This document shows, piece by piece, positions 57,278-58,554 of a DNA stretch of 64,000 bases (the first letter of the stretch is position 1; each line of letters begins with the position of its first letter). A program made the position numbers and the translations under genes. This DNA comes from Pirellulaceae bacterium (lineage in GTDB: Bacteria; Planctomycetota; Planctomycetia; Pirellulales; Pirellulaceae). The notes under the pieces were generated by a model, which had not been told where the DNA came from, ran no database searches, and saw nothing but the letters and a program-made list of their open reading frames with translations. The DNA lies in the NCBI GenBank assembly GCA_019636375.1, contig JAHBXS010000002.1, forward strand, positions 399,621-463,620, given 5' to 3'.

Positions 57278-57396
57278 TTGTGAACCGCATGAGTTTGTAT
57301 TGGACTGTTATTGAACGGCAAATATTTCATTTTGATCGCGTAACACTACTTCATTAGGATGATCGTGGCATTAGATTTTGACGGCTGGGGACAAGT

Positions 57397-58554
57397 TTGA
57401 GTTTTCAAGTTACCCAAGTAGGCTCGTGGCCTCGCTCTGAGCGGCTTCTATCCGCGTTGCGTGAAAAACGGATGGGGCGGTTGCCTGACGAGGATTTTCA
57501 AAGGCTCGCCGATGAAGAAATCCGGCGCTGTCTCGAATTGCAGATCAAGGCCGGCGTCGATGTGGTGGTCGATGGCGAACTACGTAGGGACAATTTTTAC
57601 TCGTTTCTGGCCGACAAGGTTTCTGGAACGCGATTGATGTCGCTGGCCGAAATGCTGGACACGGTAGAAGACAAGGCGGCTTTTGAAGAGATGCTGCAAA
57701 CGCTCGACGCTCCAGCGTTCGCCATTCGAAATCCGACATGTGTCGGGAAACTGGAACGACGAGAGCCTCTGGCCGTCGACGACTTGCGATTTGTTCGCTC
57801 CTTGACCGACAAACCCGTCAAGGTGACGCTTCCCGGACCGTATTTGCTGACACGGGCGATGTGGGTGACGGCTCATACTCAGAACGTCTACGGTGACAAA
57901 CCGGTGATGGCCGACGATGTTGTGCGGATTCTCCGTGAAGAATTGGAAGACCTCGCGGCTGAGAACGTCGACTTCGTTCAATTCGATGAACCTGTACTTA
58001 CAGAAGTCGTCCACAGTATCGACAACAAACGCCGCACGTTCATGTGAGCGACCCTTGCAACTCGCCGTGATGCGGGTGCCGAAATGGATTATGCTGCTGA
58101 GCTGCTGAACCGCGTCGTCGCGGGCTATGCGGATCGGATGCGGATCGGGTTGCACGTCTGTCGTGGGAATTGGTCCAAACGAGAAGACGTGCTGATCACC
58201 GGCGATTATCAACCGCTGGTTGCCTGTTTCCAAAAGATGAATGTCCGGCAGTTCGTGCTCGAGTACGCCACGCCTCGCTCTGGTGAACTCGAAGTGGTTG
58301 GACGCCGCATGTCTGATCGAGAAATCGGTCTGGGTTGCGTCAATCCCCGAACCGACTTCGCGGAACCGGCAACGGAGATTGTGGCCCGCTGCCAGGAGGC
58401 ACTCGAATACTGGCGGCCCGAACAAATTTTCTTGAACCCTGACTGCGGCTTCGGATGCTTTGCCAATCGATGCGTCAACGTGGAACAAGTCGCGTTTGAA
58501 AAATTATGTATGATGGTCGAGGCCGCCCAAATCATGCGGACACGTCTCGGTTAA
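57397..58554 (+). CDS. MetE-like cobalamin-independent methyltransferase interrupted by in-frame UGA
   Basis: A single frame of 386 codons runs from TTG 57397 (GGGGA 5 nt upstream) to the stop at 58554, broken only by TGA at 58045-58047 (codon 217). The N-terminal part has TQVGSWPRSERLL, VVVDGELRRDNFYSFL and VKVTLPGPYLLTRAMW; after the TGA it continues ATLATRRDAGAEMDYAAELL with GLHVCRGNWS (zinc ligands His and Cys), QFVLEYATPRSGEL and NPDCGFGCFA (third zinc ligand Cys). This is the MetE C-terminal-like barrel that moves methyl groups onto thiols. The codon before is ATG in RRTFM, where I recall relatives reading RTFMCxAL, so TGA would replace Cys. Alternatives are a recent nonsense mutation (then ATG 58084 may restart a second, 156-residue product) or sequencing error. 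Confidence 0.75.
58045..58080 (+). promoter_or_regulatory. In-frame UGA with downstream SECIS-like hairpin
   Basis: The TGA at 58045-58047 is followed by a possible hairpin: 58060-58065 (ACTCGC) pairs with 58072-58077 (GCGGGT), one U-G wobble, with a lower 2-bp extension past a bulged A. The six-base loop CGTGAT begins 18 nt after the TGA and has G as its second base. Distance, loop size and the early G fit what is expected of bacterial selenocysteine insertion elements. It could also be chance in GC-rich DNA. Confidence 0.35.

Follow-up and report, generated by a model that had tools for sequence, protein, structure and literature searches.

An in-frame UGA in a MetE-like gene of a Pirellulaceae bacterium points to a new selenoprotein family

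Known prokaryotic selenoprotein families (PMC13188914) combine an in-frame UGA codon, a downstream hairpin, cysteine-containing homologues and a genome equipped with selenocysteine (Sec) machinery, all of which are shared by the locus described here. This May 2026 review counts 119 such families, none of MetE or Meth_synt_2 type, in keeping with the original prediction, which knew of no established selenoprotein in this enzyme family; the methyltransferase selenoproteins that it includes are of other kinds (arsenite methyltransferase, MduS and methylated-DNA methyltransferase). The MetE-like family is likewise absent from the new selenoprotein families named in the main text of a 2025 deep-learning study, NCBIfam (June 2026) holds no model for it, and text searches of the open literature returned no paper describing a MetE-like selenoprotein or a TusA–DsrE–TusA/OsmC cluster. 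Judged by its sequence, the MetE-like protein thus appears to be a new selenoprotein family, absent from published lists.

Three further described systems come close. The core methionine synthases MesA–MesD and the C-terminal domain of MetE (PF01717), whose ligand residues have described roles (PMC7857596), share with our protein the fold, the H-C-E-C zinc ligands and S433, E484 and D599 (E. coli MetE numbering), at ~20% identity to solved MetE-type structures, but differ from it in the Sec/Cys217 insertion, the Arg or Lys in place of H694 and the TusA/DsrE/OsmC context found here. The Mlp (MtaA-like) type 1 clusters of methyl-selenium metabolism (PMC10418091) likewise encode methyltransferases of the UroD superfamily that are linked to genomes possessing Sec machinery; those enzymes, however, are corrinoid-dependent, occur in anaerobes and have other partners, whereas ours is of MetE type and accompanied by TusA and DsrE. 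Finally, the TusA–DsrE fusion YedF (PMC5322559) also ties these two domains to selenium-using genomes, but in the cluster described here TusA and DsrE are separate, or TusA is fused to an OsmC or MetE domain, and no YedF fusion is present.

The window, by which we mean the whole 64,000-nucleotide stretch analysed, belongs to a 5.24-Mb genome in 8 contigs (G000). Re-reading the frame bore out the original observation that the entire enzyme lies in one plus-strand frame broken only by a TGA: 57397–58554 yields 385 residues, with codon 217 as the sole interruption before the terminal TAA (Table 1). Its start codon is a TTG, aligned with the ATG from which many relatives start. GC3 is 0.61 both before and after the UGA, and dN is ~0.20–0.29 after it and 0.15–0.31 before it, with synonymous sites saturated. 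An antisense open frame of 302 codons (window 57580–58488, minus strand) resembles a by-product of codon use. Given a conserved Sec/Cys pair, constraint on the putative SECIS element, complete decoding machinery and a MetE fold with intact ligands, we consider it very probable that this gene encodes a selenoprotein in which the UGA at 58045 is read as selenocysteine, as had been predicted.

Table 1. Positions of the predicted selenoprotein gene and its elements within the window.
Feature	Position	Strand	Basis or detail
MetE-like (Meth_synt_2) gene, predicted selenoprotein	57397..58554	+	385 aa with Sec217; TTG start
Possible Shine-Dalgarno, GGGGA	57387..57391	+	Sequence; 5 nt before TTG start
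UGA, predicted selenocysteine codon (Sec217)	58045..58047	+	TGA shared by 17 of 20 close relatives
Bacterial SECIS-type hairpin	58060..58077	+	CGUGAU apical loop (58066-58071) on a 6-bp stem
Zinc ligand His253 codon (E. coli MetE H641)	58153..58155	+	Alignment with MetE
Zinc ligand Cys255 codon (C643)	58159..58161	+	Alignment with MetE
Zinc ligand Glu289 codon (E665)	58261..58263	+	Alignment with MetE
Zinc ligand Cys350 codon (C726)	58444..58446	+	Alignment with MetE

The source genome has the means to decode such a codon. The original prediction had proposed a search for selA, selB, selD and a tRNA-Sec, and all four are present above their cut-offs: the tRNA-Sec scores 70.7 bits (gathering score 47) and is also called SeC with anticodon TCA by ARAGORN, and SelB, SelA and SelD score 340.5, 551 and 264 bits against cut-offs of 242, 268 and 125, respectively. 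These genes lie on three contigs other than that of the window. A search of the same genome for a FwdB-type (TIGR03129) selenoprotein gave no match over the cut-off and no internal TGA. Among relatives, 22 of 23 genomes reached the tRNA-Sec cut-off, most with clear matches (at least 57 bits); matches of ~46–50 bits are untrustworthy because some controls, in which Sec use is unexpected, also reach it.

The codon itself is conserved as either Sec or Cys. Among 20 close relatives (65–79% identity) from a scan of genome contigs, the position matching the UGA is TGA in 17 and TGC or TGT in 3, the latter all from Verrucomicrobiales (L054, L055 and L070). Every TGA gene is interrupted by a single in-frame TGA ahead of its own stop and shows no other decay, and the names in their records assign these genes to Planctomycetota, Verrucomicrobiota, Krumholzibacteriota and Desulfobacterota (Desulfopila aestuarii DSM 18488). 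The expectation, given as an RTFMC motif, that relatives hold cysteine here also proved correct, with Cys in 34 of 34 Cys-type relatives checked. At 39–54% identity, more distant relatives, among them genes on Paracoccus plasmids, encode Cys at this codon, except for L098 (from G238) and L106 (from G106), which at ~49% identity carry TGA at the same codon and form a second, separate clade. Two further loci, L095 and L100, were initially counted as TGA carriers with one TGA each and were rejected, as both encode Cys there. Mapped onto a maximum-likelihood tree, the Sec label must change at least three times, a number forced by well-supported branches, and the simplest reading of these sequences would be that Sec was gained twice and reverted once to Cys in Verrucomicrobiales.

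Evidence at the RNA level comes from the hairpin that follows the UGA, ACUCGC(CGUGAU)GCGGGU, which contains one G–U pair where the relatives' stem reads ACCCGC/GCGGGU; its loop starts 18 nt downstream of the UGA with G as the second base, as first described. Across 18 Sec genes, we compared codon choice at invariant residues having four or more codons: inside the hairpin, 5 of 5 use one codon in at least 94% of genes, whereas outside it 0 of 93 reach 94% (mean 48%). Third-position identity over the eight-codon stretch from codon 222 is 0.90, the maximum for the gene (mean 0.55, s.d. 0.07). In the Cys-type Verrucomicrobiales genes L054, L055 and L070, other codons are used there and the hairpin is not formed, indicating a synonymous constraint specific to Sec genes. 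The significance of the hairpin derives from this conservation across the 18 genes and not from its fold in the window, which alone is no better than that of shuffled sequence (z = +0.6); the stem is invariant in relatives, leaving no covariation to score. In the second TGA clade (L098 and L106) the main-clade hairpin is absent and no clear SECIS was found after the UGA. The hairpin nevertheless behaves as a bacterial SECIS in the main clade, and its frozen codons are the strongest evidence that selection acts on the RNA besides the protein.

Other ways of accounting for the in-frame UGA fare poorly. Reading of the UGA as another amino acid, or general readthrough, would likewise yield the full protein but is very improbable in a genome with a dedicated tRNA-Sec, SelA and SelB, given that homologues hold Cys rather than Trp at the site and that the hairpin is constrained only in UGA genes. 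Less probable still is that a nonsense mutation broke the frame or that the gene is a pseudogene, perhaps restarting at ATG 58084, a reading that the original prediction had treated as the main rival: TGA is normally a stop and this ATG lies 36 nt downstream, but the same codon is TGA in 17 other relatives with no further damage, the replacement rate after the UGA stays low (dN ~0.2–0.3) while synonymous divergence is saturated, and a restart fragment would lose the N-terminal half with S10, E61 and D197. Conservation across phyla led us to reject it. A sequencing or assembly error, conceivable for a single genome position, has a negligible chance of explaining a TGA that recurs in independent genomes.

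The protein is, by sequence comparison, a 385-residue homologue of the MetE catalytic domain in which all zinc and homocysteine ligands are kept. Residues 4–378 match Pfam Meth_synt_2 (PF01717) at 111.8 bits against a cut-off of 21, whereas all NCBIfam methionine-synthase models score far below their cut-offs (the best, 178 bits against 406). The original prediction was right that the conserved motifs and zinc ligands are intact, but had counted three ligands where alignment with MetE gives four. H253, C255, E289 and C350 are invariant in 24 aligned members, as are the counterparts of S433, E484 and D599. The residue matching H694, which we take to be the proton donor in folate-dependent transfer by MetE, is Arg or Lys. 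Sec217 lies 14 residues past a conserved Glu203, itself located after a DEP motif, in an insertion that MetE lacks, opposite a gap in the fungal enzyme. An AlphaFold2 model built from 20 sequences has a mean pLDDT of 82 and a pTM of 0.87, and by Foldseek its nearest match is MetE (T. maritima, E = 1.7e-22), with UroD-type enzymes more distant. Because the model is unreliable in loop 201–222 (pLDDT under 50), which contains Sec217, we infer the nearness of Sec217 to the zinc rather than read it from the model.

Relatives of the gene share an operon-like order of a TusA-type protein, a DsrE-family protein, a TusA–OsmC fusion and the MetE-like gene. TusA, DsrE and OsmC neighbours are present in most loci; of 39 wider loci, 30 have DsrE no more than 3 kb upstream; and some Cys-type members carry TusA and the MetE domain as a direct fusion. 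The genome that contains the window has TusA, DsrE and TusA–OsmC grouped at ~562–564 kb of contig C2, ~105 kb from its MetE-like gene. Some loci also lie near genes of the Sec machinery. The Paracoccus ferrooxidans order is TusA, DsrE, two hypotheticals, TusA–MetE, selA and trxB; a SufS-type cysteine desulfurase is encoded upstream, and a tRNA-Sec lies ~8 kb away; in L136, a UGA-form locus from Desulfopila's phylum, tRNA-Sec is directly upstream of TusA, and in L118 selB is 8.6 kb away. The Paracoccus locus (L073, 4121–13571 and 19239–19332) is on the 1.46-Mb plasmid pFER4 and has a transglutaminase-like gene nearby besides the tRNA-Sec. Some Sec genes are followed directly by one for a ~200-residue protein that combines a Cys-rich N-terminal region with a TusA domain (L063, 4146–4748; L066, 4142–4732; also L065 and L067).

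We also surveyed 392 Planctomycetota genomes for carriers of the family, defined as having a member at E ≤ 1e-70. Fifty were carriers, and SelA was found in 48 of these against 242 of the 392 overall (Fisher P = 4e-9, shared ancestry not corrected). The association holds for Cys-type carriers alone, with SelA in 45 of 47 (P = 1.4e-8, again with shared ancestry not corrected), a count in which 19 carriers with an unread codon are taken as Cys because no internal TGA was recorded for all but one. Elsewhere the family is sparse, occurring in 7 of 395 genomes in Desulfopila's phylum and 2 of 338 in that of Verrucomicrobiales.

From these observations we tentatively propose a functional model, which we hold with less than even confidence. 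tRNA-Sec and SelB would decode the UGA as selenocysteine under direction of the hairpin; Sec217, in the insertion beside the DEP motif, would be a nucleophile close to the zinc; and the protein would move a methyl group, or a sulfur or selenium atom, within a TusA–DsrE–OsmC chalcogen relay serving selenium or sulfur metabolism. A zinc site combined with a homocysteine pocket speaks for a transferase that activates thiols or selenols; partners such as TusA, DsrE and OsmC suggest that protein-bound sulfur or selenium is handled; and the persistence of the SelA link when Cys replaces Sec points to selenium metabolism as the setting. Together, these arguments favour methyl or chalcogen transfer that feeds selenium, or sulfur from organic sources, to carriers.

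Two other functions have to be weighed against this model. One, possible though a minority reading, is a degradation pathway for organosulfur rather than selenium compounds, in which Sec would merely improve the chemistry. At some loci the gene has beside it a binding protein of phosphonate/sulfonate type and a flavoprotein resembling acyl-CoA dehydrogenases, and one locus, read by eye, has OsmC- and rhodanese-like neighbours. The binding protein, of phosphonate/NMT1 type, matches best the NCBIfam Rv1680-like model and then a selenate-type model, and the flavoprotein Rv1679/FadE16, all below cut-off. Genes of these two kinds flank the MetE-like gene in L115–L118, L054, L055 and L070; judging by their names, the Rv1680 and Rv1679 families are Mycobacterium neighbours. 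Against a pathway confined to organosulfur stand the near-confinement of Cys-type members to SelA-bearing genomes and the location of some of them near selA, selB or tRNA-Sec. The other function, that of a core (folate-independent) methionine synthase of the ordinary kind in which Sec is incidental, is unlikely: the conserved zinc ligands and homocysteine-binding residues of MetE fit it, but it sits poorly with the TusA/DsrE/OsmC cluster and TusA–MetE fusions, the SelA link, the Sec/Cys insertion, the replacement of H694 and scores far under every NCBIfam methionine synthase cut-off.

If the selenoprotein reading is right, Sec would be added to a large, well-studied enzyme superfamily with none listed, and on a catalytic fold that does not belong to the thioredoxin-like majority; annotation pipelines that end a frame at every UGA would probably split such genes or flag them as defective. 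Selenium delivery to SelD is incompletely known (PMC13188914). It is possible, though we put it slightly below the functional model itself, that several phyla share an undescribed selenium pathway, in which a MetE-type enzyme with a zinc-bound Sec or Cys moves or removes the methyl group or chalcogen of a selenium compound and TusA, DsrE and OsmC carriers supply SelD. The gene cluster, and the family's almost exclusive occurrence in Sec-using genomes even where Cys replaces Sec, may hint at a missing step on the way from environmental selenium (or organosulfur) to selenophosphate.
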